Source: a virus. Taken from it: a stretch of DNA of 30,160 nt. The notes under the pieces are model-generated. The model did not search any database and was not told where the DNA came from. It worked only from the letters and a program-made list of their open reading frames with translations. The stretch lies in the IMG/VR virus record IMGVR_UViG_3300042893_000605, positions 1 through 30,160 of that record; one strand, 5' to 3'. Shown in pieces: positions 8,766 to 29,928 of this stretch (within the stretch, counting starts at the first letter, position 1; each line of letters begins with the position of its first letter). A program made the translations under genes and the position numbers.

Positions 8766-9332
8766 TTATTTTTGTCTTTTGTAGAACACGTGGTTACCAA
8801 TTTTAGTAGCAACCTTGTGTGGCCAACGTGGGTTGACCTTTACTGAGTCTTCGTGGAACCACATAACGTCTTGATCGATCTTAGCCACCTTTTGCCCTTC
8901 TAAAAAAACTCGCTTGGCGGCGATGTAACTCGACTCCGATGGTTTGATGATGCGTGCTTTGTTAAGGTCGCTGTCACAGTACCATGAGAATTGGCATACC
9001 TTGGTATTGCTACCCACTATAGTAGATTGTGCTACTACAGCACATAAGTCATTAGGAAATAGTCCACTGCGGGCACGATTCACCGTGACCTGGGCCACTG
9101 CCATTTGCCCTGCCATGGGTTCGCCGTTAGCTTCGTAAAATACATTACGAGCTAGGCAGGCCAATTGACGTTCTAAGACTTTGGTCTGTTGTTGCTGTGC
9201 TTTGGCTATCTTAAAACCAAACGCACGATCTTCGGTGGCATTGGTCATCATTGGTGTTGCTGTTAGTGCTAAAACTGCTGTGGACATTATTGTCCAGGTT
9301 AGTATTTTTTTGAGGCGTGAAATCCCGCTCAT
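8766..9332 (-). CDS. SleB/CwlJ-type cell-wall hydrolase with signal or anchor peptide
   Basis: The 188-residue protein starts with a basic N-terminus and hydrophobic helix (residues 10-27, ending ALTATPM), which suggests export or membrane anchoring. Residues 55-185 match the Hydrolase_2 (SleB/CwlJ) family: NVFYEANGEP around residue 63-72 with the catalytic Glu67, GQMAVAQVTVNRA, a CQFSWYCD motif, and a late WFH. The family cleaves peptidoglycan as lytic transglycosylases or amidases. In this phage it may act in lysis or in local cell-wall opening. The start has a strong GGAGGG site. The downstream gene encodes a small membrane protein. Confidence 0.88.
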   Translation of the reverse strand: MSGISRLKKILTWTIMSTAVLALTATPMMTNATEDRAFGFKIAKAQQQQTKVLERQLACLARNVFYEANGEPMAGQMAVAQVTVNRARSGLFPNDLCAVVAQSTIVGSNTKVCQFSWYCDSDLNKARIIKPSESSYIAAKRVFLEGQKVAKIDQDVMWFHEDSVKVNPRWPHKVATKIGNHVFYKRQK

Positions 9333-9649: not shown

Positions 9650-10483
9650 CTACTCTAATCCCAAAATTGACGGGTTCCTGCGTAGATAATCCATGCGGAA
9701 ATAATTCCAAATGTCGTATAACTCATCACTGTTATATTTGTTAGTCAAGACTTTTAGGTCTGACAGATACTTGATGTCATTGGCATATGGTCTATATTTT
9801 TCTGGTAGAGTTTCATTGGTGTAGACATAAGGGCAAACACGATAATCATTAAGATCTAAAAATGTAGGGATCAATCGTTCAATAAGAAAAGTAAACATAG
9901 GCAGAGAATTGTCATGTGCATACTTGCTTAATCCCTCTCCAAACACCTGATGTTTAAAGTCTGTATCCTTATCAGCCTCTGTGAATAACTGGCGACTAAA
10001 TGCCATAAACTCACGCCAAAATCTCTGATTTCCTACCACATAATTAGCAAAAATCGTACGATTTCTGTCTAATAATGTCGCCAGCACATCTACATCATTA
10101 TAGCCCAATTTAGCAAAAAATGTATTACCTATTTGACTAATACCCGGATGATGGATATCACCTTGTTCCCAATTATTTGTAAACAATGCTTCATTGACGA
10201 TACAAGGATTGAACAGGTAAACATCATATCCAGGATTATCGTTGATATGGGCGAATGCCTGTTCTGCTGAGAGGTTAGTTTTTTCTTTAAACTTCCAACT
10301 AACGTATCCCCAAAGATCTAAATTTTGTTCTAAAATATTTTCATGTTCACGATTCCATACGTCCCATTCGCGTAGTTCTGGTCGTGGATTACTAGTATTG
10401 TCCAATGGAGTGAATAATGGATCACATTGTGATTTTAATTCTGGCTTAAAGTATATTTGAAAGATCTTTGTGCGTATTGACAT
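9650..10483 (-). CDS. Putative glycosyltransferase-related protein
   Basis: This 277-residue protein opens TKIFQIYFKPELKSQCDP and has P-L-F-T-PLDN, W-G-Y-V-SWKFKEKT and YDVYLFNP blocks. That order resembles a family of bacterial proteins found in polysaccharide clusters that begin with (Y)F-D-P-x-F-x-PLDN; I believe they are glycosyltransferase-like, but no catalytic motif can be pointed to with certainty. Its start overlaps the preceding glycosyltransferase gene by 38 bases, and an AGAGAAG site precedes the ATG. It is the last gene of the glycan cluster that begins near 16.9 kb. Confidence 0.55.
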   Translation of the reverse strand: MSIRTKIFQIYFKPELKSQCDPLFTPLDNTSNPRPELREWDVWNREHENILEQNLDLWGYVSWKFKEKTNLSAEQAFAHINDNPGYDVYLFNPCIVNEALFTNNWEQGDIHHPGISQIGNTFFAKLGYNDVDVLATLLDRNRTIFANYVVGNQRFWREFMAFSRQLFTEADKDTDFKHQVFGEGLSKYAHDNSLPMFTFLIERLIPTFLDLNDYRVCPYVYTNETLPEKYRPYANDIKYLSDLKVLTNKYNSDELYDIWNYFRMDYLRRNPSILGLE

Positions 10484-11228
10484 ACTTCTCTATTTCCTTT
10501 GATATATTTCTTGCTCGAGGCATGAATTCATTTTCAAGCCTATAGGTTAATGTTTCTTTATTTGTTATATGATGGAACCCACGATTTAACTGACGATCGA
10601 TCAAGGGTATCTGTGTTTGTATCTGTAGCTTGCGAGCAAAGCCACCTTGATCCATTGGGCACCAGCCGTAATAGAATGTCACCAACTTGTCTGTATTATA
10701 TGTATTCCAATGACGACCTGGGGCCATGCATGCCTGTGTTGACTCTGCTGGGTAGTGTACCGGAACGTTATGTAGGCTACGGCTTCTACGTTCTAAAAAG
10801 TTTTGTTGATTGTCGCTGAACAAGAATCCATCAAACTTTTGTTCATACAATGGTAGATCATGTGTAACTTCTCGAGCTCTATCACAGTCAACAAAAAACA
10901 CACTAGGTACCAGCAGTTGGCGAGGCTCATCATCTAAGATACTGTAGTCACCAATTAGTTGTTCTGTAACATTTAAACAGATCTTCCATCCATCAATTTG
11001 ACTTTCGATATCATTGACTTCAGTGTCAATAGTATCTGCTTGGAAGTCTGGGTTACGACTAGTTATGATTGTCCAAGTTGGACAAATGCTTTTAATAATT
11101 TCAACTGAACGATCAGTGCTATGATAATCAATCATGATACCGTGATCAAATATCTGCTTATGGTGATTAAGGAACCATGGTAGCATATATTCTTCGTTAT
11201 AGAAATGACATAGTAAGGTTTTTTTCAT
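10446..11228 (-). CDS. GT-A type glycosyltransferase-like protein, tandem paralogue 2
   Basis: At 260 residues, it starts KKTLLCHFYNEEYMLPWFLNHH, followed by FDHGIMIDYHSTDRS: this NEE...HSTD(R)S pattern is typical of the glycosyltransferase family 2-like (PF13704, GT92-like) proteins that use DxD-like residues to bind the sugar nucleotide. A VFFVDCD strand at about residue 112 supplies a possible DxD-type metal site. It is clearly a paralogue of the next upstream gene (same N-terminus and the same YYGW C-terminal motif), so one arose by tandem duplication. The ATG overlaps the previous stop by four bases. Confidence 0.75.
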   Translation of the reverse strand: MKKTLLCHFYNEEYMLPWFLNHHKQIFDHGIMIDYHSTDRSVEIIKSICPTWTIITSRNPDFQADTIDTEVNDIESQIDGWKICLNVTEQLIGDYSILDDEPRQLLVPSVFFVDCDRAREVTHDLPLYEQKFDGFLFSDNQQNFLERRSRSLHNVPVHYPAESTQACMAPGRHWNTYNTDKLVTFYYGWCPMDQGGFARKLQIQTQIPLIDRQLNRGFHHITNKETLTYRLENEFMPRARNISKEIEKYVNTHKDLSNIL

Positions 11229-12064
11229 CCAATCACCCTTGGCTCGGCTTGTATTAGTTTAGATTCAATTGTTATAGGATCAACAATCACTGTACTAATT
11301 TCATTCGAGTACTGATAAGAACATATATGTTTTATGGATTCTCTAAGATCTTTACTCAAATTTCTCAATTCTGTATATGCTCCACGAAAAGTATCCTCAT
11401 CTCGATGATGTACCGTGCCGCCTTCATTGATTTTACTTTTTATCTGCGTTTTCCTTTTCAACCCGGCTGTACTAGAATCCGCCCAGCCATAATAGAAGAT
11501 CACCAAATCATCAAATGATTTTGGATAATCTTTGCCACCCCAATGCCTTCCGCCAGTGTATGTTACAGGATAATTGTGTAGGCTACGATTCATCCTGCTC
11601 ATCGCTCCGCCTTTTTGGTGTCCGTTGTTTGCGAAATCATCATACCCCCAATAGCGTTGTTCATGTAAAGGCTTATCATGAGATAATGTCCGCGGACCTT
11701 TGGTTTCGTCTTCCATATCAACAAATACATAATTACCAACGAAATACTGTGTTGGTTCTGTACGATCATCGAGATGACTGGTATTTCCATATAGGAATTC
11801 TGTGGTATTTAAGCACATGTGCCAGCCGTCTAATTCTCGTTCGATATCCATGACTTCTTGATCAATCGGAACACTGTCAAAATATTTGTTGCGTGTGTAC
11901 CTAAGTTCCCAGTCTGGACATATCTCACGAATGATCTCCATGCTGCGATCAGTTGAATGATAATCAATTAAAATACCATGATCAAATATTTTTTTATGAT
12001 GATCCAGCCACCAAGGTAATAAATGCTCTTCATTATAAAAGTGTGAAACAACAGTTTTCTTCAT
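11225..12064 (-). CDS. GT-A type glycosyltransferase-like protein, tandem paralogue 1
   Basis: A 279-residue paralogue of its downstream neighbour with HFYNEEHLLPWWLDHH, ILIDYHSTDRS, VFVDMED, RSLHNYPV and VIFYYGW in the same order. These are the marks of a GT2/GT92-like fold (PF13704) that would transfer a sugar from a nucleotide donor; acceptor unknown. The C-terminal 60 residues differ from the paralogue, which may mean different acceptors. The ATG has no ribosome-binding site; an AATAAATA box lies five bases before it, so expression may depend on a late promoter with a leaderless start or on read-through. Confidence 0.75.
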   Translation of the reverse strand: MKKTVVSHFYNEEHLLPWWLDHHKKIFDHGILIDYHSTDRSMEIIREICPDWELRYTRNKYFDSVPIDQEVMDIERELDGWHMCLNTTEFLYGNTSHLDDRTEPTQYFVGNYVFVDMEDETKGPRTLSHDKPLHEQRYWGYDDFANNGHQKGGAMSRMNRSLHNYPVTYTGGRHWGGKDYPKSFDDLVIFYYGWADSSTAGLKRKTQIKSKINEGGTVHHRDEDTFRGAYTELRNLSKDLRESIKHICSYQYSNEISTVIVDPITIESKLIQAEPRVIG

Positions 12065-12069
12065 GCATG

Positions 12070-12077
12070 TATTTATT
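12070..12077 (-). promoter_or_regulatory. Possible T4-like late promoter box (variant)
   Basis: AATAAATA on the minus strand, one mismatch from TATAAATA, five bases before the ATG at 12064. The spacing is tight, so this may be chance. Confidence 0.3.
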
Positions 12078-12081
12078 TGGC

Positions 12082-12948
12082 CTAAAATACGCTACTGATA
12101 CTACCGCCTCTATTAGGCATGGAAAATGTTGGAGTTGGGATTTCTGGTACAGGTTCTGTATTTTTAAATCTATGTTCTATTTTGTCAGCATCAAGTTCTT
12201 TATTTTTTACCCAATATACTGAACTGTTATCAATAGTAATATACTCGCTGTCGATGCCATGAAATTCTCTATAGTCAGACAATGCACGACGACAATTAGG
12301 TAATCCGTAATCGTCAACGATAACATACCCGCCCACTGATAGTCTAGGATATAAGTTTTCTAATGCTACAATAGTTGACTCATACATATCACCATCAAGT
12401 CGTAGGATAGCTAATTTTTCTACAGCAAGCGTTGGTAAGGTGTCACTGAACCAACCTTTGACAAATTTTACTTGATCAGTGAGTAAATCATATCCAGCAA
12501 AGTTTTGTTGTACTTGCTCAAGATTAACTGCTAGGAATGGTGCTGTATGATGTGTGTCACCACGATCCACTGGATATTCATGATCCTTTGGCGGTGGTAA
12601 TCCTTGGAAACTGTCGCATACATAAACATTACGATCAGTGACGCCATAAGCACGTAAGATAGCTGACATGAATATACATGCGCCTCCGCGCCATACCCCA
12701 GTTTCAATAAAGTCGCCTGGAATATTTTTGTTGATCACATCTTCAGCAAGTTCTTGGATATTTAATAATCGTTTGTTGCCAGCCATGGAATGTGCTAGTA
12801 CTGGCCAATCTTCTCCAAGTTCTCTAGCAGTTTGATTAAATGCGATTTGCTGACCTTTGCCAGAATCAAATGATGGATCTCTATAGGTTAACCCAAGTAT
12901 GGTTTTTCTTACTATGTCTAGGTACATCTGTCTTAAATTTTGTTCCAT
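12082..12948 (-). CDS. TylF/MycF-family O-methyltransferase
   Basis: The 288-residue protein carries the SAM-binding motif IETGVWRGGA (81-90), CDSFQGLPPP (111-120), the RLDGDMYES motif (183-191) and VIVDDYG (209-215). These match the macrocin O-methyltransferase family, which is metal dependent (Asp ligands) and methylates sugar hydroxyls of glycosylated products. I infer sugar O-methylation in the cluster. A clean AAGGAC site lies upstream of the ATG. It sits between the C-methyltransferase-like gene and the glycosyltransferases. The S-adenosylhomocysteine it makes could be removed by the AhcY encoded at 20180-21466. Confidence 0.88.
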   Translation of the reverse strand: MEQNLRQMYLDIVRKTILGLTYRDPSFDSGKGQQIAFNQTARELGEDWPVLAHSMAGNKRLLNIQELAEDVINKNIPGDFIETGVWRGGACIFMSAILRAYGVTDRNVYVCDSFQGLPPPKDHEYPVDRGDTHHTAPFLAVNLEQVQQNFAGYDLLTDQVKFVKGWFSDTLPTLAVEKLAILRLDGDMYESTIVALENLYPRLSVGGYVIVDDYGLPNCRRALSDYREFHGIDSEYITIDNSSVYWVKNKELDADKIEHRFKNTEPVPEIPTPTFSMPNRGGSISSVF

Positions 12949-12960
12949 GATTTGTCCTTG

Positions 12961-14172
12961 TTAATTTGTGCTAACTACAGGAAAGTATTTGATGAATACG
13001 TCACCTTCTTGATCGCGTTTAGTTTTAATTTTACTGCTAATTTCTTTAAAGAAGTTCCAAGCCAAAGGAACAAATGCTACTTTGGTATCACCTAGTGACT
13101 CTAATGCATCAATCGCTAGCACAGGAATACTCATACCTGGACTATATAAACCTTGTTTCATTGGATTATCATCAATGATCATATCTAGTTCGGTCTTACC
13201 AAAGTTTAATAGAGTGTTGCCTTTAGCTGCCGCACCATAGCCAACGAGTTTATAGCCAAGACCTCGATAATGATCAAGGGTAGAATTTAAATCACCGATG
13301 ATAGTATAACAATGATCAGCATAGGCAAGATAGGTATTCATGTCTTGCAAGCCTTGTTCACTCTCGTGATCCAATTGAAGTTGTACACTTGGTCTCGCAC
13401 CAGGTGTCTTAGCCATAACAAACAAATAACTATTACCATGTATAGGCGTTTTTTGTATATCAATAATATGTAAGCCGGCCCGTGCCGCAAGTGCGGACAT
13501 TGAGCTTGAATTAAAGAAACTTAGGTGTTCGTGATAGATAGTATCAAACTCATTGTTCTTGATCATGTCAGCTTGACTGGTTTGTATAAACAAACGGCTC
13601 TTATCATGCATGATCTCTTTACATTGTAGTAAGAAGTCCAACGGATAGTCGTTATGTGCAAATACATTTTGAGCTGTGATAATATCTAATTCTTTCATCT
13701 TATAATGATAAACATATTTTTCTTTAAAATAATCACAGACCACTTCGTGATTGGCATTACTTAATACGTGTAGGTTTTCAGCAGGGTCAATACCGTAGGT
13801 CTTTAATCCTAGAGTTTTAAATGAATTTAGTTGGCTGCCGTCATTACAGGCAATGTCTAATACTGTTTGTGGCGGCATTTCAAAATATTCTAAGGTACGT
13901 TTAGCGAACCAATCAAAGTAGTCACGAAGTGTTTGGCTCGTACCCGACACATAAAGATAGTTTTTAAATAACAAATCTGGATTTACCGCATGACTTAATT
14001 GTAAGTGTGTGCAGTCTTCGCAGATGTTTAAGCGCAATGGAAATGTTGGTTCATCTTCCTCGGCAGTTTTCTTAAAACTATTAGCGAGTGGTTGCTCGTT
14101 TAAGTCTAAGACTAGGGTAAGTCTTTCGCTGCCACAGCAAAGGCATTCATTAAGTTGTTTAGCGTCTTCCAT
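12961..14172 (-). CDS. Sugar C-methyltransferase-like protein (NovU/TylC3/EvaC type)
   Basis: A 403-residue protein with the three-part layout of this family: an N-terminal zinc site (CLCC at 10-13 and CEDC at 51-54), a central SAM domain (VLDIACNDGS at 104-113), the catalytic YHEH motif at 213-216, and a C-terminal Rossmann-like domain with GYGAAAKGN near 308. Family members methylate the carbon next to a keto group of a dTDP- or NDP-4-keto-sugar. That substrate is just what an RmlB-like dehydratase (15831-16862) would supply. Its start is set by a GAGAAG site 4 bases upstream and overlaps the SDR gene end by 14 bases. Confidence 0.88.
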   Translation of the reverse strand: MEDAKQLNECLCCGSERLTLVLDLNEQPLANSFKKTAEEDEPTFPLRLNICEDCTHLQLSHAVNPDLLFKNYLYVSGTSQTLRDYFDWFAKRTLEYFEMPPQTVLDIACNDGSQLNSFKTLGLKTYGIDPAENLHVLSNANHEVVCDYFKEKYVYHYKMKELDIITAQNVFAHNDYPLDFLLQCKEIMHDKSRLFIQTSQADMIKNNEFDTIYHEHLSFFNSSSMSALAARAGLHIIDIQKTPIHGNSYLFVMAKTPGARPSVQLQLDHESEQGLQDMNTYLAYADHCYTIIGDLNSTLDHYRGLGYKLVGYGAAAKGNTLLNFGKTELDMIIDDNPMKQGLYSPGMSIPVLAIDALESLGDTKVAFVPLAWNFFKEISSKIKTKRDQEGDVFIKYFPVVSTN

Positions 14173-15085
14173 AATCTTCTCGTTCCCAATTATAAATTAT
14201 ATATTTGTCTCTCCATTGCGGAGTTGATTGTTCGTAACTTTCTATTAAGCTATCTACTATTGTAGCAGGAGTTTCGGTAAACGTAAAGTCAAACGTTTGT
14301 TCAAACAGAGCAGTATCTATAGCAAAATCGTAGGCATTAACAGTAGCACCTCGATCATTGATATCAACACCTAGTTTAGCACTGACTGCCTGTGCTATAT
14401 TACCTACGGTTGCATTGAAACTGGCAAGATTATAAATGCCCGGTACTGGTTGCTCAATACAGCGATTTATAGCACGACATAAATCTTCTATACCCAACAT
14501 AGCACGGCTAATCTGCTTATTCATTACCTGTATACCTGTGCCCATTTGCACACTATGGTACATACTGTTAATCATAACATCAACACGTAGGTTAGGCGCC
14601 CAACCATTGACTGTACCAAAACGTAGACCAATTACTCGTTTGCCGCGTAGATTAGCAATAGTTGCCTGTTGATCTAATGCGTACTTGGTAACATCATAGT
14701 TGTTAACAGGTGTGAAGTGTGTATTAGTTTCTTTGTGACATTCACCAGGAGCACTGTTACCATAAACACTAGCACTACTAGCATAGATAACCAATTGATC
14801 ATCTAATTTTTCTAATAAGTCTGTAAAGTTAGTAACATTGTTTAACCACGGACCCGGCAGTGCACCGTTACAACTAGGAACACTACTGTGACCAGCTAAA
14901 ACTACAACTACCTCAAACTCTGCTAGTTCTTCTTTAGTAAGTTTTTGATAGTCTCTGCGGTCACTGGTTTCGTCATGATTAAACCAACAAATGTCGTTGG
15001 TTTTAACAAAATGATTTAGTCTAAGTACCTGACGTAGCCTAGATCCAATGTAACCATTGCCACCCAGAATTAGTACTTTTTTCAT
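14159..15085 (-). CDS. NAD-dependent epimerase/dehydratase-like SDR
   Basis: This 308-residue extended SDR has the dinucleotide motif GGNGYIG (8-14), an SSASVYG strand (103-109) and the catalytic YDVTK (130-134). The family acts on nucleotide sugars as epimerases, dehydratases or reductases; with the neighbouring 4,6-dehydratase and C-methyltransferase it probably works on the keto-sugar intermediate as a reductase or epimerase. I use the ATG at 15083-15085 (MKKVLILGG), which overlaps the upstream TGA (TGATG), not the TTG one codon upstream. Confidence 0.85.
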   Translation of the reverse strand: MKKVLILGGNGYIGSRLRQVLRLNHFVKTNDICWFNHDETSDRRDYQKLTKEELAEFEVVVVLAGHSSVPSCNGALPGPWLNNVTNFTDLLEKLDDQLVIYASSASVYGNSAPGECHKETNTHFTPVNNYDVTKYALDQQATIANLRGKRVIGLRFGTVNGWAPNLRVDVMINSMYHSVQMGTGIQVMNKQISRAMLGIEDLCRAINRCIEQPVPGIYNLASFNATVGNIAQAVSAKLGVDINDRGATVNAYDFAIDTALFEQTFDFTFTETPATIVDSLIESYEQSTPQWRDKYIIYNWEREDYGRR

Positions 15086-15822
15086 CAATCAATGATCATC
15101 ATGCCGTTTGGTGCGATATTACCTTGCAAGCCAACAATGTCTAATTCAACTAGTTTATCTTTGGGGATAAATTTAGCCATCGCATGCTCATTGTCGATAT
15201 ATTTGTTTTGATTGAATAATCCCACCATAGTTTCAATAATTTTGTTATACATACTGATAGTATTAGCCAATAGACTAGGAGTAAATGACCATAGACGAGT
15301 TTGTAATAAAGTATTCACTCCAGTATCAGCTGGATTGATCCAGCTTGGTTGTGCTCGCTTAAACACATACTTGTCTTTGGTAGTAGCATTATCAAATTGT
15401 TTAATATCAAACTTATCTGTGACTTGATAGCGGCCACTGAGCTTAAAAATACGATCAGCATCTTTAACTTCTTTCATCATATCTTGGTCGTTGCTAATAT
15501 AAGTCAAGGCTTTCATGATTCCTAATGCTTCCATAGCATTTTTACCAATGTCATAGTTCTGTACATTGTCATGAAAGTACTTGATGTCAGCATCATCACT
15601 GTTGTCGATGTAATAGTCAACTAGATCAATCAGTTCTTCAAACTCTGCGCTGGTATCATTTTGTACATCAACTTTACTGTTATCTACCAGAATGATAACT
15701 GTCCCCGGAATATATTTCTTAGCACTCTTAGCAGTTTCTAATGTCTGTTGGATACGTTGTGTTGGATCATATATACCATAGTTAGTATACACTGCTGAGG
15801 TTAGCAATACAATATTTTTCAT
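15085..15822 (-). CDS. Hypothetical glycan-cluster protein, WavE/glycosyltransferase-like
   Basis: The start is placed at the ATG at 15820-15822 (MKNIVLLTSAVYTNYG) because AAGGAC lies 6-7 bases upstream, immediately after the dehydratase stop; 245 residues. The stretch R-I-F-K-L-S-G-R-Y-Q-V-T-D-K-F in the middle is common in putative glycosyltransferases of the WavE-like type, and the N-terminal VYTNYG...R-x-Q-x-T-L-E-T is seen in the same set. No proven catalytic residue can be named. The stop overlaps the ATG of the SDR gene, so it is coupled to it. Probably a transferase for a sugar made nearby. Confidence 0.6.
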   Translation of the reverse strand: MKNIVLLTSAVYTNYGIYDPTQRIQQTLETAKSAKKYIPGTVIILVDNSKVDVQNDTSAEFEELIDLVDYYIDNSDDADIKYFHDNVQNYDIGKNAMEALGIMKALTYISNDQDMMKEVKDADRIFKLSGRYQVTDKFDIKQFDNATTKDKYVFKRAQPSWINPADTGVNTLLQTRLWSFTPSLLANTISMYNKIIETMVGLFNQNKYIDNEHAMAKFIPKDKLVELDIVGLQGNIAPNGMMIID

Positions 15823-15830
15823 ATTAGTCC

Positions 15831-16862
15831 TTATTCGCAACGCAACCAACGGTCGTTCTTTAATGTCCATTCAACCACTTCACCAATACGTTCTGTTAAA
15901 CTAACCTTAGGTTCCCAACCTAAACTGCGCATGTAGTCACCGCTTAGAGCATAACGTAGGTCATGTCCTGGGCGTGAGCTATGGAAGTCGACCATTTCGT
16001 ACTTCAATTCTTTTCCTTGCGCATCAGCGATAATCTGTGCTAATTGTAGATTATTGATTTCTTGTTTGCCTACTAGATTGAACTTGGGACAACGTGCATC
16101 ACCATAGTCTGCTTCTAGCTTGGTACTGTCTAATCCCAGCAAGAACATCATAGCATCTGCTACGTCTGCCGCATGGATATAAAAACGACTGCCCGGAATA
16201 GTACGGGTTGCATCACTGTGGATAGTAATAGCATCACCATCGTTTACCTTACGGATACACATAGGAATAAACTTCTCTGGGTGTTGGCGTTGACCAAATA
16301 CGTTCATGGTATGTGTGATGTAGATAGGTAACTTGTAGGTATTTTCAAATGCCACTGCTAGTTCTTCACCACCAGCTTTAGTAGCTGAATATGGATTACT
16401 AGAATTGTAACGGTCACGTTCACCGTAATTAACACCGTTGGGTGCTGGACCGAACACTTCGTCTGTTGAGAAGTAGATGAAACGTTCTAGATTTTTTAGT
16501 TTACGAGCGAACTCTAAGATATGACCTGTACCAACTACGTTGTCCCAGACAAACTCCATTGGGAATTCAATTGATCGATCAACATGGCTACCTGCGGCCA
16601 AATGTAATACATAGTTTACATCACCGATATCACGTACTACCATCGGGTTTAGTTCAGCACGCAGATCATGGAATACTATCTTCACACGCTTTTTGATTTC
16701 TACATCAAAATCTGCCATCATATCTGATAGTCGATTTAGATTACCCGAGAAGTCTAGTCTGTCTAAGCTGACTACGTTCCAATCGGTATTTCTTAAAATA
16801 TTTTCAATAACGTGGTGTGCGATAAATCCCGCACCGCCAGTCACCAAGACGGTTTTTGACAT
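15831..16862 (-). CDS. dTDP-glucose 4,6-dehydratase-like enzyme (RmlB family)
   Basis: A 343-residue SDR with TGGAGFI (8-14), the dehydratase-specific STDEVFG motif (132-138) whose Asp-Glu pair removes water, and the catalytic YSATK (158-162). Length and the SRFYIHAADVADA region fit RmlB. It would convert an NDP-hexose (probably dTDP-glucose) into the 4-keto-6-deoxy sugar, the first committed step to many deoxysugars. The C-methyltransferase and the second SDR downstream could act next. No RmlA is present, though the nucleotidyltransferase fusion at 27726-29324 or a host enzyme could supply the substrate. A GGAGAA site precedes the ATG. Confidence 0.9.
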   Translation of the reverse strand: MSKTVLVTGGAGFIAHHVIENILRNTDWNVVSLDRLDFSGNLNRLSDMMADFDVEIKKRVKIVFHDLRAELNPMVVRDIGDVNYVLHLAAGSHVDRSIEFPMEFVWDNVVGTGHILEFARKLKNLERFIYFSTDEVFGPAPNGVNYGERDRYNSSNPYSATKAGGEELAVAFENTYKLPIYITHTMNVFGQRQHPEKFIPMCIRKVNDGDAITIHSDATRTIPGSRFYIHAADVADAMMFLLGLDSTKLEADYGDARCPKFNLVGKQEINNLQLAQIIADAQGKELKYEMVDFHSSRPGHDLRYALSGDYMRSLGWEPKVSLTERIGEVVEWTLKNDRWLRCE

Positions 16863-16930: not shown

Positions 16931-17104
16931 TTATGCTTCTGTTCTGTCTGCGACTGTACGAGCAACTTTAGTTTCTACGTATTCTTTGATAAACTTGATA
17001 GCTTTACGGCTAGTATCAAAAACATATTCACTGGTTTCATCTTCCTGTGTCAGGATCACTACGAATCCATTTGTTACTTTACGAATTTCAATTGAATCAA
17101 ACAT
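16931..17104 (-). CDS. Small hypothetical protein (57 aa)
   Basis: Read from the minus strand: starts MFDSIEIRKVTNGF and ends VADRTEA. It shows two or three beta strands (SIEIRKV, GFVVILTQ, EYVFDTS) followed by a helix (RKAIKFIKEYVETKVA), a compact alpha/beta fold. No family recognised. It has its own promoter (17139-17167) with a short leader and is followed by the RmlB-like gene 68 bases later. Confidence 0.75.
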   Translation of the reverse strand: MFDSIEIRKVTNGFVVILTQEDETSEYVFDTSRKAIKFIKEYVETKVARTVADRTEA

Positions 17105-19393: not shown

Positions 19394-19424
19394 AAAAAGC
19401 CCCATAATAAATATGAGGCTTTTT
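19394..19424 (-). terminator. Intrinsic terminator of the outer-membrane protein gene
   Basis: On the minus strand AAAAAGCCTCAT pairs with ATGGGGCTTTTT around a 7-base loop, with a run of T at its end. It lies about 50 bases after the stop of the beta-barrel gene. Confidence 0.8.
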
Positions 19425-19471
19425 GGATACTAATAAAGGTTGCGCATTATTAAGAGGCGTTATTAGTTTGA

Positions 19472-20062
19472 TTAAAACTTAATCATGTAACCCGCATTGT
19501 AACCAATGAAGTCACTGGCACCATAGCTACGATCAACGCCCAATGTCACAGCTTGATCTTTAGCGATAGCGTATTCAGCACCAAATCGCACTGTGTTTGT
19601 TTTTTCATTGTATGAGTCACTAAACGCATCACGGAAACGGTATCCTGCTTTAACTGCTAATGCATCTGTTAAAGAGTATTTGATACCCGGTTCAACTGAA
19701 TAGTATGTATAGTCTTGATTTGAAGTAAACTTCTGGCCTAGACCACCACGTGTGTATAATGACACAGCTGGAAGTAGATTGTATGAGTATGTAGCACCTG
19801 CTTCTAAACGTGTTGTACTTACACCAGCATCATTGTTTAGACGTTCAGTACGGAACTGTTCACCTAGGTCGATCGTTAGGTTATCTAACACCTTGCGACC
19901 AATTGTAAAGTTAACACCTTGACGATTAGTGTCAGCCTTATTGTCAGCGATCGTGTCACGGAATGTGTATTGGATGTGAGCAAAATTTTTGCCGTCTTCG
20001 GCCAAGACTACTGTACCAAATGATAGGCCAGCGATAAGTGTTGCGATTAAAGTTTTTTTCAT
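19472..20062 (-). CDS. Secreted outer-membrane beta-barrel protein
   Basis: The 196-residue product has a clear Sec signal peptide (MKKTLIATLIAGLSFGTVVLA, cleavage after Ala21 by the VLA pattern). The mature part shows repeated amphipathic strands with alternating residues (e.g. NFAHIQYTFR, LTIDLGEQFR, TRLEAGATYSYNLL, VSLYTRGGLG, LAVKAGYRFRD, VRFGAEYAI) and ends in YMIKF, the C-terminal aromatic signature used for BAM-mediated insertion. About eight strands fit the OmpA/Ail-like barrel size. I infer that the phage remodels the host outer membrane, perhaps to block superinfection or change permeability, as the Lom-type proteins of lambdoid phages are outer-membrane proteins too. GAGGAA precedes the ATG, a late promoter and a terminator flank it. 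Confidence 0.88.
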   Translation of the reverse strand: MKKTLIATLIAGLSFGTVVLAEDGKNFAHIQYTFRDTIADNKADTNRQGVNFTIGRKVLDNLTIDLGEQFRTERLNNDAGVSTTRLEAGATYSYNLLPAVSLYTRGGLGQKFTSNQDYTYYSVEPGIKYSLTDALAVKAGYRFRDAFSDSYNEKTNTVRFGAEYAIAKDQAVTLGVDRSYGASDFIGYNAGYMIKF

Positions 20063-20133
20063 TGTGTTTCCTCAGTTATAAATTGTTGCAAAAAAGCCAC
20101 AGAATAAAATCTTGTTGCTTTAAAGCCACGTTT

Positions 20134-20141
20134 TATTTATA
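20134..20141 (-). promoter_or_regulatory. T4-like late promoter (TATAAATA) of the outer-membrane protein gene
   Basis: Perfect TATAAATA on the minus strand, 72 bases before the ATG at 20062, leaving a leader of about 65 bases with a good ribosome-binding site. The leader contains an imperfect direct repeat, GTGGCTTT followed by a GCAACAA run, at two places. Confidence 0.65.
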
Positions 20142-20179: not shown

Positions 20180-21466
20180 TTAATATCGATAACTATCAGG
20201 TTTATAAGGGCCATCAACCGCGACGCCAATATACGTGGCTTGATCAGCGGTCAGTGCTGTTAGTTCTGCACCAATCTTGGCCAAATGTAATTGAGCAACC
20301 TTCTCATCTAAATGTTTTGGCAATAGATATAAATGTCCAATTTGATAATCTTCAGTGTTGTTAAACATTTCAATCTGTGCTAGAACTTGGTTAGTAAATG
20401 AATTACTCATTACATAACTAGGGTGGCCTGTGGCACAACCTAGATTAACTAATCGACCTTTAGCCAAGATGATGATCTTATTACCGTTTGGTAAAGTTAC
20501 ATGATCAACTTGAGGTTTGATTTCGTCCCAGACTAGATCTTGTATACCAGCGATGTCGATCTCACTGTCAAAGTGACCAATGTTACAGACGATGCTGTTA
20601 TGCTTCATCTTGATCATGTGTTCACGAGTGATAACATCGATATTACCTGTGGCTGTTACAAAGATGTCTGCCTTGTCTGCGGCATAGTCCATGGTAACTA
20701 CTCGATAGCCTTCCATGGCCGCCTGTAAGGCGCAGATTGGATCGATCTCAGTTACCCATACCTGTGCCGACAGTGCTCGTAATGCCGCGGCTGATCCTTT
20801 ACCTACATCACCAAAGCCTGCTACCACAGCAACTTTGCCTGCGATCATCACGTCAGTGGCACGTTTAATACCATCTACTAGACTTTCACGGCAGCCATAT
20901 AAGTTATCAAACTTGGCTTTGGTCACTGAATCGTTTACGTTGATAGCACGTAGTTTGAATTTACCTGCGGCGATCGCTTCGTTAATCTTATGGATACCTG
21001 TGGTTGTTTCTTCTGTTACTCCACGGATTCCTTCTATTAGATGCGGATGTTTTTCATGGATATACCAGGTTAAGTCGTGCCCGTCATCAAGTAACATATT
21101 TGGCCGCCAGTCATTAGGACCACTCAGTGTGCGTTCTATACAATCCCAATATTCTTCTTCTGTTTCGCCTTTCCAGGCGAATACAGGAATACCTAGATCA
21201 GCAAGTGCGGCAGCAGCGTGATCCTGTGTTGAAAATATGTTACATGAACTCCAACGTACTTCTGCACCCAAGGCAACCAGTGTTTCAACTAATACTGCTG
21301 TCTGGATAGTCATATGTAATGATCCAGAGATACGGGCACCTTTGAGTGGTTGAGCTTCTTTAAACTCTTCCCTAACAGACATTAATCCTGGCATTTCTGT
21401 TTCAGCGATAGCTATTTCTTTATGCCCCCAGCTAGCTAAACTAATATCTTTTACTTTATAATCCAT
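20180..21466 (-). CDS. ahcY: S-adenosylhomocysteine hydrolase
   Basis: A full-length 428-residue AhcY: the N-terminal [17 protein letters not shown] block, [10 protein letters not shown], the NAD-binding [10 protein letters not shown] near residue 215, and the C-terminal K-P-D-S-Y-R-Y signature (last seven residues). It splits S-adenosylhomocysteine to adenosine and homocysteine and so removes the inhibitory product of methyltransferases. The phage encodes two clear methyltransferases and a radical SAM protein, which makes this placement logical. Its length lacks the roughly 40-residue insertion of many bacterial forms. ATG follows the acyl carrier protein stop by one base. Confidence 0.96.
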
Positions 21467-24317: not shown

Positions 24318-24959
24318 TTAAAATAGTTTGTCTAAATGCTGCTGAAACGCATCTAAATAATCTTGGCGCTTGTCAATGGTTTGAGAAGTCCCCCAAGTGA
24401 TGTGTGGATCCATCCATTCATACCCAACAAAATCAAATACTGATTTAATTGGATTTAACATATTATCTACGCTACCCATAACATAATTACAGCAAGGAAT
24501 ACCAGTGCCCATAACCAACGACACAAAAATTTTTTTTCCCTCTAATAGTTTGTCTATATGAAAATCTTCTGACCATATGTCGTGTGGTACGAATGTGCCC
24601 TCGGGTACAATTACACTTTCAATATATAATTTTAAAATTGCAGGTACCATCCATACCAAAATCGGTGTTTGTATATAAAGTATGTCTGCATGTTTTAGTT
24701 TTTCTATTTCTCTGGCAGAAAATTCGCTGATAATTTTAGTATAGTTGTGATGATAAGATGACCGATATTTTTTAACTGGGTCTGGTACAGGATTACTATA
24801 TAATATTTCTACCGATTCCTGCAATGCATCATGCACTTGAAATAAATCTAATGTTTCAACTTCATACCCTTTACTAACAAAGTGTTTATTTGCTATGTTA
24901 AATAATCTAGCGGTTAAACTTTGGGCATTAGGATGAACAAATATAGAATAAACTTTCAT
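24318..24959 (-). CDS. Flavodoxin-fold NAD(P)H oxidoreductase-like protein
   Basis: The 213-residue product opens MKVYSIFVHPNAQSLTARLFNIA, a form typical of the NQO1/MdaB/KefF flavodoxin-like family (Flavodoxin_2), with the flavin loop SLTARL and a central TPILVWMVPAILKLYIE helix that matches the conserved W-x-(F/M)-P-x-x-L-K block. It probably binds FMN or FAD and reduces a quinone-like or other organic substrate with NAD(P)H. It might supply reducing equivalents in the cluster. Its ATG overlaps the upstream TAA (TAATG). Confidence 0.8.
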   Translation of the reverse strand: MKVYSIFVHPNAQSLTARLFNIANKHFVSKGYEVETLDLFQVHDALQESVEILYSNPVPDPVKKYRSSYHHNYTKIISEFSAREIEKLKHADILYIQTPILVWMVPAILKLYIESVIVPEGTFVPHDIWSEDFHIDKLLEGKKIFVSLVMGTGIPCCNYVMGSVDNMLNPIKSVFDFVGYEWMDPHITWGTSQTIDKRQDYLDAFQQHLDKLF

Positions 24960-25162
24960 TATAAAGTCTCTGAGGATACCTTATTTGACCCTTTTTGTGC
25001 TGTTGCTGGATCGCTAAATTTACGATTCTTAGCAGATGCTAGTGCAGCTTCAGCATCAATCATCATCTTTTTATAAAAATTACGTGCTACTGGGTCAGTG
25101 TAACTAGCTAGTTTATATTTTGTTACTCTTGACATATTAAAACTTGCATTGGTTTTAGCCAT
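24959..25162 (-). CDS. Small basic protein (67 aa), T4-like phage type
   Basis: Begins MAKTNASFNMSRVTKYKLASYTDPVARNFYKKMM, followed by an Ala-rich helix and a polar tail. The FNMSRxTKxKLAxxxDPxA layout recurs in small proteins of T4-like marine phages as far as I recall; I know no function. A good AAGGAAA site precedes the ATG, and its TAA overlaps the ATG of the flavodoxin-like gene. Confidence 0.75.
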   Translation of the reverse strand: MAKTNASFNMSRVTKYKLASYTDPVARNFYKKMMIDAEAALASAKNRKFSDPATAQKGSNKVSSETL

Positions 25163-25176
25163 TTTATTTCCTTTTA

Positions 25177-26283
25177 TTAAGTTATTATTTTAGCACTTAG
25201 TAAATGTTTTGTAAACCATTCTTTAGGGTGACATTCATAATTAAACACGTGTCCATGTGCTTTCATTGGTATCCTAGTCATAGCCAAAAATGCGGCATCA
25301 CGTGCTTGACTTAATAGATCAACATCTTGATCAGGATTAACATCCAATTCGGATATATAATATTTCCAAAATAGAGGAATATCTTCTTCCGCCCAACGTG
25401 CTTCTACACCATTCGGGTCCATACTGTACAATCTTTCTGCCGCTGAATATAAGTTAGTCCAACCGTCCTTGCGTTCTGGATAACCAACACGCACTCGCAT
25501 AGAGGATTCTAAAAATCCAGGAGGCACAAATAATGGAGGTGCTATAGTACCTAATAGATGACCTACATGACTATAACCATCATAGTGTCGTATTAACTCT
25601 TTTGTGGGAGAATATACTGTGCTAGGTATTTTTAGTCCGTATTGCCAACCAAGCGAGTCTGAACGGTATATATTATCCTCGCCGCAATCTGTATCAAACC
25701 AATACTTCTTAAATCTACCTGCTTTCATCATTAGTAGACTATCAACAGTGTCCCAATGGAACTTGATAAAATTACCGTCTAGTGTTAATTCACCTTTATG
25801 TAACAAGCTCATTCGCATCTGTTCAGGCCAATGACTATAATACATCACCGCTAAAGGATCAGGATCGGCATTTAATATGTCAATACTTGCACGAATCATA
25901 TCTAGATTACTGTCTATAAAGATATGATCATCGTTACCTTCATACCAAATTAACTTATTATCATTGGTAAATTGGCTATCACAAAGGTCTCTCCAAGTCT
26001 GTGTGCGATCTATTCTATACCAATGGATTTCTAACTTATCTGCAGGGAATATACTCAACATATATTCATATAATTCAGCTTGACGAGGGGAAAATTCAGC
26101 TAGGTCGATATAGAACACGAACTTGTCTACTACCGGAGTCATTACTGCACGACTGGCAAGACAGTATTTAAATATATCAAAACGATTGTTTACAGGAAAC
26201 CAGCTAGCACGATCGTATACTGTACCAGCATACGGGTGTGTCATTTTCACATCAGTGATCTTTACATTGAATAAAACGATCAT
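25177..26283 (-). CDS. Glycosyltransferase-like protein (368 aa)
   Basis: A 368-residue protein with VVDKFVFYIDLAEFS, LEIHWYRIDR, then NDDHIFIDSNLDMI near residue 117-130. The DDH-type acidic stretch after a hydrophobic strand, and the Rossmann-like first half, fit a GT-A-like glycosyltransferase. The YSPTKELIRHYDGYSHVG segment is a conserved pattern I have seen in phage and polysaccharide loci but cannot name. It lacks a signal peptide or membrane helix. The ATG overlaps the aldolase-like gene's TGA (ATGA). Confidence 0.6.
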   Translation of the reverse strand: MIVLFNVKITDVKMTHPYAGTVYDRASWFPVNNRFDIFKYCLASRAVMTPVVDKFVFYIDLAEFSPRQAELYEYMLSIFPADKLEIHWYRIDRTQTWRDLCDSQFTNDNKLIWYEGNDDHIFIDSNLDMIRASIDILNADPDPLAVMYYSHWPEQMRMSLLHKGELTLDGNFIKFHWDTVDSLLMMKAGRFKKYWFDTDCGEDNIYRSDSLGWQYGLKIPSTVYSPTKELIRHYDGYSHVGHLLGTIAPPLFVPPGFLESSMRVRVGYPERKDGWTNLYSAAERLYSMDPNGVEARWAEEDIPLFWKYYISELDVNPDQDVDLLSQARDAAFLAMTRIPMKAHGHVFNYECHPKEWFTKHLLSAKIIT

Positions 26284-27266
26284 TTTAGATTATTTGTGTA
26301 TAGATCTAAAATATATTCAATTTCGCTAGTGATAGTAGCTTTCCAATCTGTTCTTTGATTAAGTACATTTATCAAGGCTTGATATTTGCTTGATGAGAAA
26401 CAATAGTGCCCAGCAACATTGATCTGATGTTCGCGATCGTTACTGTCAGTCCATTTACGCCAACGACCGCTATCAACTACTTCGCTAGCAAAGTCTGCCC
26501 ATTGGCCTTGTGCATCTGGATATTGCTCAACTAGTCTACGTAATAGTTTAGTCTGCACTACACCTAGTTGTGGGGCTATGTTAAGAGCATGTACACCTAC
26601 AGCACTGCGTAGGCTAATTTCTTCAGCTGACAAATAATCAGCATTATGTTCTTTCATCTTAACGCCGTTGGTATTAGCCACTTCGACTAGTTCTTTAACT
26701 GTAGCTGTTTCAAATCCGCCTGCTTGATGATCTTCATGACATAGACTACCTGTTTGTGCTACAACAAATTGTATATTAGGAATATCTTTAGCAAAGGCCA
26801 CATCTGCTTTATATTTGATCGCCCCTGCGGCTACTCCTACATTTTCTTCTGTGCCAAATTCAAATTGTATATTAGGATTAAGATCTAAGCAGAATTTAAA
26901 TAGTTCTTCAGCGATACCATATGTATCATCAACACGGCTAGTATCAATATGGATTAGATTAAATCCCTGTTCGATATCGTAGGCAATGGTCTTCTTGGTT
27001 GCTTCTACAGCATCACGTATACTTAAATTCTTTTCTGCATCTAGGAAGTATGGACCACAATGGTCACGACACATCCAGATATAATCTGTAGGTAATGTAG
27101 ATAACTGCTCACGTATCTGCGGGGTAGTCATCACATAACCACTTTCAGCATCTACTTGATTACGACTTGCGATAATCATCAATGGTTTTTTATTATTGTG
27201 ACTGTAATTGCACAATATCTCAATGACCTCACGGCTCATTGGGCCAAACCCTAGTCTAAAATCCAT
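26280..27266 (-). CDS. GatZ/KbaZ-like class II aldolase family protein
   Basis: I use the ATG at 27264-27266 because GGGG lies seven bases upstream; the frame also allows a TTG two codons earlier. The 328-residue product has a TIM-barrel layout with RLGFGPMS, MCRDHCGPYF, NLIHIDTSR, FEFGTEENVG, QTGSLCHEDHQAGGF and KEHNADYL at the ends of strands, which match the tagatose-1,6-bisphosphate aldolase subunit GatZ/KbaZ and related sugar-phosphate aldolases. It would join or split a ketose phosphate. In this position it may build the carbon skeleton of the sugar that the three upstream-transcribed genes activate. It is shorter than GatZ (about 420). Confidence 0.75.
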   Translation of the reverse strand: MDFRLGFGPMSREVIEILCNYSHNNKKPLMIIASRNQVDAESGYVMTTPQIREQLSTLPTDYIWMCRDHCGPYFLDAEKNLSIRDAVEATKKTIAYDIEQGFNLIHIDTSRVDDTYGIAEELFKFCLDLNPNIQFEFGTEENVGVAAGAIKYKADVAFAKDIPNIQFVVAQTGSLCHEDHQAGGFETATVKELVEVANTNGVKMKEHNADYLSAEEISLRSAVGVHALNIAPQLGVVQTKLLRRLVEQYPDAQGQWADFASEVVDSGRWRKWTDSNDREHQINVAGHYCFSSSKYQALINVLNQRTDWKATITSEIEYILDLYTNNLK

Positions 27267-27726
27267 GTTCAATCCCCATTAAATACATAATATGCACGCA
27301 AGCATCCATGACTGCGCCTTTACCGCCTTCACGGTCTGTAACAACATCTGCGTTTTCAATTGCTGTTCTCCAAGCCTGTGCTGGAGCAAAACTTAATCCC
27401 ACATGTGGAAATATTTTTGCATCGTAAGGTCCGTCACCCATGAAGATAGTTTCCTTTGGATCTCCTTTACTCAAGACCCAGTTAAGTCTATCTTTTTCTT
27501 TAACCATGGTACAAGGAAATTTCATATGATCAATAATACGACTTTCTGTAATAGGCCAACCCATTTCATCGGCTGATACAAATTCTATTTCTAAGTGTTT
27601 GCGTAATAATTTAAGTCCATCGTGATCATAGTTACCAAATGCCTTGAATGGTTTACCATCTACACCCCAATAGAGCATGCCGTCATTTAGTACACCATCT
27701 ACATCCATGATAAAACGTTTATACAT
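27256..27726 (-). CDS. KdsC-like HAD-superfamily phosphatase
   Basis: At 156 residues, it has the HAD nucleophile motif DVDG (Asp8, Asp10), motif II in FVSADE, and motif IV MGDGPYDAK (Asp98, Asp102). The small, capless form with GVLNDG after motif I resembles KDO-8-phosphate phosphatase (KdsC) and related sugar-phosphate phosphatases. It would remove phosphate from a sugar phosphate, probably at a non-anomeric position. It overlaps the aldolase-like gene and is coupled to the kinase/nucleotidyltransferase gene (TAATG), so it is very likely one step of the same pathway. Confidence 0.85.
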   Translation of the reverse strand: MYKRFIMDVDGVLNDGMLYWGVDGKPFKAFGNYDHDGLKLLRKHLEIEFVSADEMGWPITESRIIDHMKFPCTMVKEKDRLNWVLSKGDPKETIFMGDGPYDAKIFPHVGLSFAPAQAWRTAIENADVVTDREGGKGAVMDACVHIMYLMGIEHGF

Positions 27727-29324
27727 TACCCAAGCACCTTGTTAAAGTGTAGTTGTGCTAGTGCTATCAAGAACTTGTCAAACGGTGCTTCGTGTAATGG
27801 ACTCATGTTCAAGTAGATGATTGGCACCAATGTCTTAACTTTCTTCCAATCTAGTCCTTGTTTCGCCACCCAACGCTGTAAGATGTCTTCATATACCTGT
27901 ACATCTTTTACGCTGGGAACTTCTATCGTAGCATAGTCATTGCGTTCTGCATACATGTAACGCTCGTGTTTAATGTCTTTATAGCTCAAGTGTAAGCCAC
28001 CTAGCATTTTTGCCAGATCATAATATTGATCACCATAAAGTGCGCCACCAAAGTCAGTTCGCCAATCGATAGCAGTGAACTTATCTTTATAATGTTCTCT
28101 ATGTATTTCGGTATCAGTTAGAGGGCCAAGATATTGTCCATGTTGATAAATGGTATTATCAAAGTGTAGATCACCGTGGATAAACTTCCATGATGTTTCT
28201 GTGGTTAACCAAGTAAAGTCAATCTTGCTTAGGTATGTGTCGATGGTATCTACTTCAACGCCATTGACCACACAAGGTTCACTCCAGGTAGCATACTTGG
28301 CACGGAACATTTCTACACGTTCTATGGTTTTATCATGATAGAATTTATTACAGATAGTAAGATGATCGATATCAGCATCGTTCTCAGATGGAGCAGGTTT
28401 CCATAATGTCGTTTCACACCAAGCCAACATACTTTCAAATACCTCAGGTGAGTATTGATTATAAACGATATCACCCTTGGCAAAGTCATGTATTAGGAAG
28501 TTGCCTGATTGCTCAACATTGTTAGGCATGGCTTCAGGATTACACTTTGCTCGTTTTACACGCATCTCTGCCTGCTTGGGATTAGTCCAGAACTTGACGA
28601 TCTTTTTATTATCGTTGTAGAATAGTTCATCTGGCTTAGGAAAACTTACATCAGTAAACTCATTTGATAGCTCTTCCCATTTCTCATAAGTGCCGAAGTC
28701 TTTCCAACCACGCACTGTGTGTGCTTTTAATTTAAGTCCATCAAATCCTTCTGGAGTTTCTTTGGCCTTGCGATTGATTAAATTACGTAGATAGTTATCA
28801 TCTTTAGCATACATCAATCCAATGAACGCATCAACTGCGGTCTTGCTAGGTAGTTTATTCTTTACACTGATGATATTGTCTGCTTCACGTTCAATCCAAC
28901 AGTAGTCTTGTGCGATAGCACTGTCGACTGGATGTACTCCGATCCAATTGTGATCTAGTTTATCTCTGTATTCAAAGTCAAATAATGTATCGCAGGCCAA
29001 CCACATGAACCCACCATGTAGATATTTGGCACAGGCCTGTATGCTGGTAGCAGGTCCTGTATCACCTTCTGCGTAGTTGGGAATGTCTACAAATACCACG
29101 TCTTTATCACTGTGGACTACACTGACATAATCTTTAATATATTGGCCCATATGACCACAGGCCACAACAAAGCGTGTTCCTTGATCAAACTTTTCCATGA
29201 TGTGACTGATTAGTGGTTTGTTGTCATATGGAATAAGTGCTTTAGGTATCATACGACCAAATGGTCCCATACGACGACCATAGCCTGCCGCAAGGATTAA
29301 TACTGTGAGTTTAGTTGTGTTCAT
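27726..29324 (-). CDS. Bifunctional sugar-phosphate nucleotidyltransferase-kinase fusion
   Basis: A 532-residue two-domain protein. Residues 1-225 are a nucleotidyltransferase: LILAAGYGRRMGPFG (9-23) with the P-loop-like GxGxRM and later PKALIP (27-32). Residues about 240-532 are an APH/choline-kinase-like phosphotransferase with the catalytic HGDLHFDN (383-390) and the metal-binding IDWR (419-422). It would first phosphorylate a sugar (kinase) and then join it to a nucleotide, as the separate HddA/HddC enzymes do for heptoses, or as LicA and LicC do for choline. The sugar and nucleotide are not identifiable from sequence. A fusion in this order is unusual. Confidence 0.85.
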   Translation of the reverse strand: MNTTKLTVLILAAGYGRRMGPFGRMIPKALIPYDNKPLISHIMEKFDQGTRFVVACGHMGQYIKDYVSVVHSDKDVVFVDIPNYAEGDTGPATSIQACAKYLHGGFMWLACDTLFDFEYRDKLDHNWIGVHPVDSAIAQDYCWIEREADNIISVKNKLPSKTAVDAFIGLMYAKDDNYLRNLINRKAKETPEGFDGLKLKAHTVRGWKDFGTYEKWEELSNEFTDVSFPKPDELFYNDNKKIVKFWTNPKQAEMRVKRAKCNPEAMPNNVEQSGNFLIHDFAKGDIVYNQYSPEVFESMLAWCETTLWKPAPSENDADIDHLTICNKFYHDKTIERVEMFRAKYATWSEPCVVNGVEVDTIDTYLSKIDFTWLTTETSWKFIHGDLHFDNTIYQHGQYLGPLTDTEIHREHYKDKFTAIDWRTDFGGALYGDQYYDLAKMLGGLHLSYKDIKHERYMYAERNDYATIEVPSVKDVQVYEDILQRWVAKQGLDWKKVKTLVPIIYLNMSPLHEAPFDKFLIALAQLHFNKVLG

Positions 29325-29784
29325 GTTCTGCGGCTATCCTTCCATGTCCTCTGTTAGCAGAGTCTTCAAGACGTATAACGTCATCTAATTGAGTAGTGCT
29401 AGCTTCTGTGTAATGTAGATCATCATGTGCGATCATACGGTGGATAGTACGAGGTGGGGTATGGAACACTGCACCTGGTGCTAGTTCTTCAGTGATTAAC
29501 TCGCTTTTAATCTGTGCTATTTCTTCTGCTGTATACCCACCTGCTAAGAAACGCTCACAGTCAAACGGCGTTGGATGGTATGCTAGTGCACCATGCCCAA
29601 TATGTAAATGGATACTTTCTGATTTAAATTGGTGAACTTGTAGGCTAGTAACAAAGCCTGCTCGTAAGATTAATTCTTTGAGTGCAAACGGATAAACATC
29701 ACTACCTGGCATTAACCAAGTTTCGGTTCCCCATGGTTTATGTACCACGTGGCAATCTTCAATTCTTAGGAATTCTACAGTCAT
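29311..29784 (-). CDS. Cupin-fold protein, phosphomannose-isomerase (type II)-like
   Basis: The 157-residue protein has a V-H-K-P-W-G-T-E-T-W opening and a QVHQFKSESIHLHIGHG...RTIHRMI pair of cupin motifs, with His residues that would bind a metal. This is the layout of the ManC/type II phosphomannose isomerase C-terminal cupin. It may isomerise a sugar phosphate or bind a sugar nucleotide. It is the first gene of the operon behind the promoter at 29805-29833, with AGAGG before the ATG, and overlaps the next gene by 14 bases. Isomerase function is inferred from the family only. Confidence 0.8.
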   Translation of the reverse strand: MTVEFLRIEDCHVVHKPWGTETWLMPGSDVYPFALKELILRAGFVTSLQVHQFKSESIHLHIGHGALAYHPTPFDCERFLAGGYTAEEIAQIKSELITEELAPGAVFHTPPRTIHRMIAHDDLHYTEASTTQLDDVIRLEDSANRGHGRIAAEHEHN

Positions 29785-29852: not shown

Positions 29853-29928
29853 TGGTACTCCCAACGAGATTCGAACTCGTGTTACCTGCGTGAAAGGCGG
29901 GTGTCCTAGGCCTCTAGACGATAGGAGC
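29853..29928 (-). tRNA. tRNA-Glu (anticodon TTC)
   Basis: A complete 76-base minus-strand tRNA with encoded CCA. Anticodon loop CTTTCAC gives anticodon TTC. The GTCTAGAGGCCTAGGACACC and TTCGAAT parts match bacterial tRNA-Glu closely, and the acceptor stem (GCTCCTA with TGGGAGT) pairs fully, with one G-T at the end. Confidence 0.95.

Follow-up and report, generated by a model that had tools for sequence, protein, structure and literature searches.

The outer-membrane proteins known to be encoded by phages belong for the most part to temperate phages that infect enteric bacteria, and are barrels of eight or sixteen strands; the OmpA, Ail and Lom families have eight. The adhesin OpcA of Neisseria meningitidis makes its ligand site from long extracellular loops, omptins carry a catalytic Asp-His couple above the membrane, and the small acid-sugar channels KdgM and NanC have twelve strands and a basic pore lining. 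According to the excerpted text of PMC9004378, the T4-like phage Melnitz and pelagimyophages, which infect aquatic bacteria, carry genes for outer-membrane CsgGF pores, for which lysis control or uptake was proposed. This is the nearest published idea found, as set out in that excerpt, in another fold: CsgGF pores differ from the barrel described here in both fold and oligomer (PMC9004378, same excerpt). Open-access papers on phage-encoded porins or barrels yielded no description of the present family.

Here, we describe a gene for a predicted outer-membrane beta-barrel in a 30,160-base virus record (the window, meaning the whole stretch of DNA analysed). The barrel family occurs in many T4-type lineages, and in the clade tested it evolves under purifying selection. 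Its lumen is conserved, and with one small gene it becomes possible to test directly what lytic phages do, late in infection, to the outer membrane of the host.

An intact, selected gene for a predicted ten-stranded barrel with a basic, conserved lumen

The barrel gene occupies positions 19472 to 20062 on the minus strand (ATG start; 196 amino acids, stop codon included in the coordinates), with an unbroken frame behind a GAGG ribosome-binding site (20070 to 20073, minus strand). By sequence, residues 1 to 21 (codons at 20000 to 20062, minus strand) form a Sec signal peptide with a KK n-region, a hydrophobic stretch and an xLA/ED cleavage site; the A21-E22 cleavage pair is invariant in a 15-sequence alignment (A2), and the structural model places a low-confidence helix at this N terminus. 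The C-terminal residue is Phe in the window protein, as the first-pass annotation had noted, and among 45 non-redundant sequences it is Phe in 42 and Tyr in 3. The window protein scored 34.2 bits against Pfam OMP_b-brl (PF13505; cut-off, 28.7) and so belongs to this broad family, which has no one function and within which the phage group is a distinct branch. DUF2490 and YfaZ also matched, both below their Pfam cut-offs, and PHROGs returned no family for the protein at E values up to 1.

AlphaFold2 gave the same ten strands with 10 and with 33 aligned sequences (mean pLDDT, 83.6 and then 87.9; pTM of the second model, 0.79). The original proposal of a phage-encoded barrel with a Sec signal peptide is upheld by the intact 196-residue frame and by the ten strands of both runs, and none of the outcomes named in advance as contrary to it came about: the genome scans turned up no close cellular gene, the reading frame has no break and the structure prediction gave a barrel. 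The host type of the virus would be Gram-negative bacteria, in whose outer membrane the barrel is predicted to sit.

In a second-look structural alignment the top fold match was OpcA (PDB 1k24; Z, 20.0; 169 residues; 2.2 Å), followed by Legionella Dot/Icm porin I, a designed ten-stranded barrel and omptins; these other top matches are ten-stranded barrels as well. The likeness to OpcA lies in that shared fold, whereas identity is 11%, the mature phage protein is shorter (about 175 residues, compared with 249 for the OpcA chain) and the long loops of OpcA are absent, the surface loops of the window protein measuring 3 to 9 residues (9, 9, 5, 8 and 3). OmpA, Ail and Lom, suggested earlier as comparators, proved unsuitable: both models have ten strands, the nearest solved fold is OpcA and no Ail/Lom Pfam family matched at E values up to 1, and kinship with Ail/Lom/OmpX or OmpA was rejected. 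An omptin protease was also rejected; the ten-stranded fold fits (Pla and OmpT; Z, 14.8 to 17.7), but there is no catalytic His, and the sole His of the window protein, H29, lies in strand 1 and was assigned to the lumen. KdgM and NanC are likewise small barrels (Z, about 12), but at 8 to 12% identity no kinship was detected. The VIA-align lists also contain OmpT, Pla, NanC, KdgM and the barrels of autotransporters, all with smaller Z values, and absence of a family from those lists carries no weight.

When residues of this barrel family alone were assigned to lumen or lipid by alternating hydrophobicity in the sequence, the lumen of the window protein held 13 basic and 5 acidic residues; across the family the mean net lumen charge was +6.5, with a net positive lumen in 44 of 45 sequences. 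Conservation is also highest in the lumen (mean column entropy, 1.45 bits, compared with 1.96 for lipid-facing positions and 2.02 for loops and turns). E87, G109 and Y120 are invariant in all 45 sequences, and R85, R105, K111, E124, R159 and D177 are kept in 41 to 44 of them. Distant relatives were fetched with the patterns QY[TA][FLY]RDT[IV] and YR[FY]RD[AS]F[SN], because of which conservation at residues 31 to 38 and 141 to 148, including the invariance of Y141-F147, is partly built in; R85, E87, R105, K111, E124, R159 and D177 all lie outside these patterns. A lumen this basic would prefer anions.

Relatives of the barrel are encoded at 67 other viral loci, the viral contig searches with 1, 10 and 15 query sequences having returned 14, 20 and 67 distinct loci, respectively. 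Sequences under 170 amino acids were left out of the conservation, neighbourhood and lumen counts; of the 64 sequences of at least 170 residues (63 relatives and the window protein), 45 remained at <95% mutual identity, with 23 to 95% identity to the window protein. Purifying selection was evident in eight near-clade genes (mean dN/dS, 0.16; strands, 0.135; surface loops, 0.225), and the loops gave no sign of diversifying selection.

Patterns built from near relatives, which remote cellular relatives could escape, were scanned twice against 84,980 bacterial and archaeal genomes; the 30 and 39 stretches that they matched included no relative. A plasmid search returned nothing real. Across 50,697 phage records, tblastn with the window protein gave one weak match (an "outer membrane protein" of Ochrobactrum phage vB_OspM_OC; E, 0.4), queries with the family members L062 and L042 gave none, and no named phage held a convincing relative. 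The six best matches in BFVD were proteins of uncultured Caudovirales phages (TM-scores, 0.71 to 0.84; next match, 0.53). The uncultured Caudovirales proteins A0A6J5LHQ2, A0A6J5TAD3, A0A6J7X0F0 and A0A6J7WWH4 (TM-score by query, 0.79 to 0.84; 22 to 27% identity to the window protein), annotated as uncharacterised or porin-domain, probably belong to the same family. The cyanophage outer-membrane-like barrel Phage_OMP (PF24653) is likewise phage encoded; its profile matched 4 of 33 family members at E values up to 0.01 (best, 9.8e-5), while L062 scored 18.3 against a cut-off of 27 and the window protein had no match at E values up to 1. As far as searched, the barrel family is apparently phage specific.

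Promoter-type box, leader and terminator of the barrel unit

A late-promoter-type box, TATAAATA, lies at 20134 to 20141 (minus strand), 71 bases upstream of the barrel ATG, and is kept at that site in nine of ten aligned upstream regions of close sequences, window included, L012 being the exception; the upstream alignment (A3) left out L003, L005 and L009 as duplicates and L010 and L011 for their different upstream DNA. The box is no commoner in the window than chance would have it (5 found, 5.32 expected; as many in 61 of 100 shuffles). In 16 contig pieces, where each repeated context contributed a single count, it stood upstream of genes 26 times in the right orientation versus 8 in the wrong one (p, 0.003), a strand bias ranking first among 56 words of like composition. 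It occurs within 250 bases of the barrel at 13 of 66 loci (L059 and L068, with truncated gene starts, were left out), namely those of L036 and of close kin of the window, one of the 13 falling outside the clade of the window, and is absent from the other 53.

The T4 late coactivator gp33 (PF16805) exceeded its cut-off in 7 of 22 family records, although the records nearest to the window, fragments like the rest, gave no gp33 match, and a gp33 gene lies near the barrel at 24 of 64 loci. Two of the 22 records have a Gp23-type capsid gene, and the capsid genes of G001 and G019 have no TATAAATA in the 200 bases upstream. Neither gp55-type late sigma families nor the gp45 clamp family was found in the 22 records, all of them fragments, in a search with no control scoring. 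Sigma-70-like promoters are in use on these contigs too, TTGAC-N16-19-TAnnnT occurring in 24 of 113 upstream regions in the forward direction and once in reverse (near set). From the conservation and orientation bias of the box, gp33 and Gp23 set against the missing gp55 and gp45, the 13 of 66 loci and the sigma-70-like promoters, TATAAATA is likely the late promoter of the barrel gene in the clade of the window and is not general to the family. The T4-type late promoter claimed at the outset is likely right for this clade: the conserved, oriented box, gp33 and the capsid gene speak for it. The box count in the window is at chance level, and gp55 was not found in the 22 fragment records.

The 5' leader (20063 to 20133, minus strand) contains two GTGGC-N6-GCAACA repeats, of which the second hardly varies across ten sequences. 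The leader hairpin did not reach significance (fold z, -0.88), and a structured leader was rejected. Downstream, an intrinsic terminator (19394 to 19424, minus strand) consists of a 13-pair hairpin with a T run at its end (-16.3 kcal/mol; z, -3.9; 1 of 200 shuffles as good), although a simple terminator scan did not pick it up. The unit accordingly has its own terminator, as had been asserted, though the hairpin (19424 to 19394) falls beyond the interval first assigned to the unit, 19472 to 20141.

Between gene and terminator lies a conserved 37-base element (19430 to 19466, minus strand), which eight viral contigs carry exactly if a single variable base is tolerated; in seven of them it follows a barrel gene, at barrel identities down to 66% (L011). 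The near relative L123 has no barrel unit at this junction: no more than four bases lie between the stop codon of the upstream S-adenosylhomocysteine hydrolase (SAHase) gene (20180 to 21466 in the window, minus strand; PF05221; E, 3.4e-129) and the 37-base element after it. Promoter and barrel gene, about 710 bases, are therefore present or absent as one block. Loss from L123 is the simpler reading, because the barrels of L010 and L049 (67% and 40% identity) sit upstream of the same epimerase island as that of the window, and a copy may lie elsewhere in the partly read L123 contig.

Candidate roles and gene neighbourhood

Tentatively, and with slightly more doubt than confidence, we favour a narrow barrel with a basic, anion-favouring lumen that changes outer-membrane permeability late in infection. 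In the clade of the window, phage late transcription would express the gene, the host Sec system would export the protein, the host BAM machinery would fold it into the outer membrane, and the barrel would then act through its lumen as a narrow, anion-favouring channel. Late timing, BAM insertion, outer-membrane location, a conductance or permeability role and a benefit to the phage are what we infer from the ten-strand model, the basic conserved lumen, purifying selection, the promoter tests and, in clade 3, a neighbouring gene for a TctC-type solute-binding protein. The conserved basic lumen and the short surface loops together make a permeability barrel preferable to a loop-based receptor mask. 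Several points tell against the channel. Packed charged side chains close the barrel of OmpA, and charged side chains may likewise close a ten-stranded barrel; the window gene has no TctC neighbour; and late timing is called into question by the box missing at 53 of 66 loci and by gp55 and gp45 unfound in the 22 fragment records.

An envelope-stage lysis factor, in which the barrel would weaken or breach the outer membrane at the end of infection together with the endolysin, replacing spanins or acting beside them, is a serious rival but a rather unlikely one; it is the gene neighbours that suggest it. The window encodes a SleB-type endolysin (Hydrolase_2; 8766 to 9332, minus strand; PF07486; E, 4.7e-22) about 10.7 kb downstream of the barrel on the same strand, and of the 64 loci with a complete barrel, 37 have such a gene within 11 kb on the same strand, in 36 cases downstream. 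The distance is under 3 kb in clades 1, 3 and 4 wherever an endolysin was seen, and in L023, L031 to L035, L036 and L077, with the two genes directly adjoining in L031 to L035 and L077; a GH19 gene (PF00182 in L023) stands upstream of the barrel on the same strand at seven loci, and the promoter of the window clade is of late type. Against a lysis role, the divergence of the barrel showed no clear correlation with that of the endolysin (Mantel rho, 0.17; 547 of 5,000 permutations as high; 18 loci), so their co-inheritance is not supported, and the common synteny may be mere inheritance. The endolysin is 5.0 to 10.7 kb from the barrel in L024, L010, L049 and the near relatives of the window, and in the window clade it is 6.7 to 10.7 kb off with a sugar island between. 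At 27 of the 64 loci no endolysin was seen; many of these have short flanks, yet all ten loci of clade 2 are among them. A still more doubtful reading is that this family, confined to phages, made up of ten-stranded barrels with a basic lumen, expressed late and encoded close to endolysins in phages of T4 type, is a dedicated outer-membrane conduit that finishes lysis or controls permeability without spanins or disruptin peptides.

Superinfection exclusion or receptor masking, with the barrel covering or displacing a phage receptor and so blocking competitors, or keeping progeny from binding debris, is also improbable, if a little less so than such a conduit. A precedent exists in S-layer proteins of phage Melnitz, proposed in the excerpted text of PMC9004378 to protect against superinfection, and the sugar-nucleotide and methyl-transfer genes of the window could remodel the surface. 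Masking or exclusion would predict longer or varying loops and early expression, but the surface loops span only 3 to 9 residues with a dN/dS of 0.225 and no diversifying selection, and the promoter is of late type. The T4 exclusion factors Imm and Sp are made early. The initial suggestion of a superinfection stop or receptor mask is weakened, because the loops are short and not diversifying and the best-conserved positions face the lumen; altered nutrient entry, suggested alongside it, may still hold.

That the gene is a passenger, a captured host barrel gene decaying or with no specific role, is very improbable: its absence at the same junction of L123 may mark it as dispensable there, but purifying selection, the conserved lumen, 67 viral loci and the lack of a confirmed cellular relative in two scans argue otherwise, and a decayed host gene was rejected on the intact frame, the dN/dS of 0.16 and those same two genome scans.

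Around the barrel, a 716-amino-acid radical-SAM gene (PF04055; 17169 to 19319) lies between it and a 57-amino-acid gene (16931 to 17104), which in several near relatives comes straight after the barrel, with a terminator and a promoter of sigma-70 type in between. In the window, barrel and endolysin are separated by an island of sugar-nucleotide and methyltransferase genes; the blocks at 9653 to 16862 and 24321 to 29784 hold epimerase, TylF and C-methyltransferase, glycosyltransferase-like, GatZ-like and nucleotidyltransferase genes and, with the SAHase, possibly serve surface glycan or hypermodification synthesis. Among plasmids the SAHase is nearest to Azospirillum megaplasmids (72%), which reflects the makeup of the plasmid collection, and its relatives in phages were confined to three records, at 54.5% at most. 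In clade 3, a TctC-type periplasmic solute-binding protein (PF03401) is encoded two genes upstream of the barrel at six of six loci (L060, L063, L069, L070, L071 and L072). A UvsW-like helicase (2495 to 3958) is nearest to those of the jumbo phages Phosso (55.6%) and Atu_ph07 (52.0%), so the window probably represents a fragment of a very large phage. A tRNA-Glu(ttc) gene lies at 29853 to 29928 on the minus strand.
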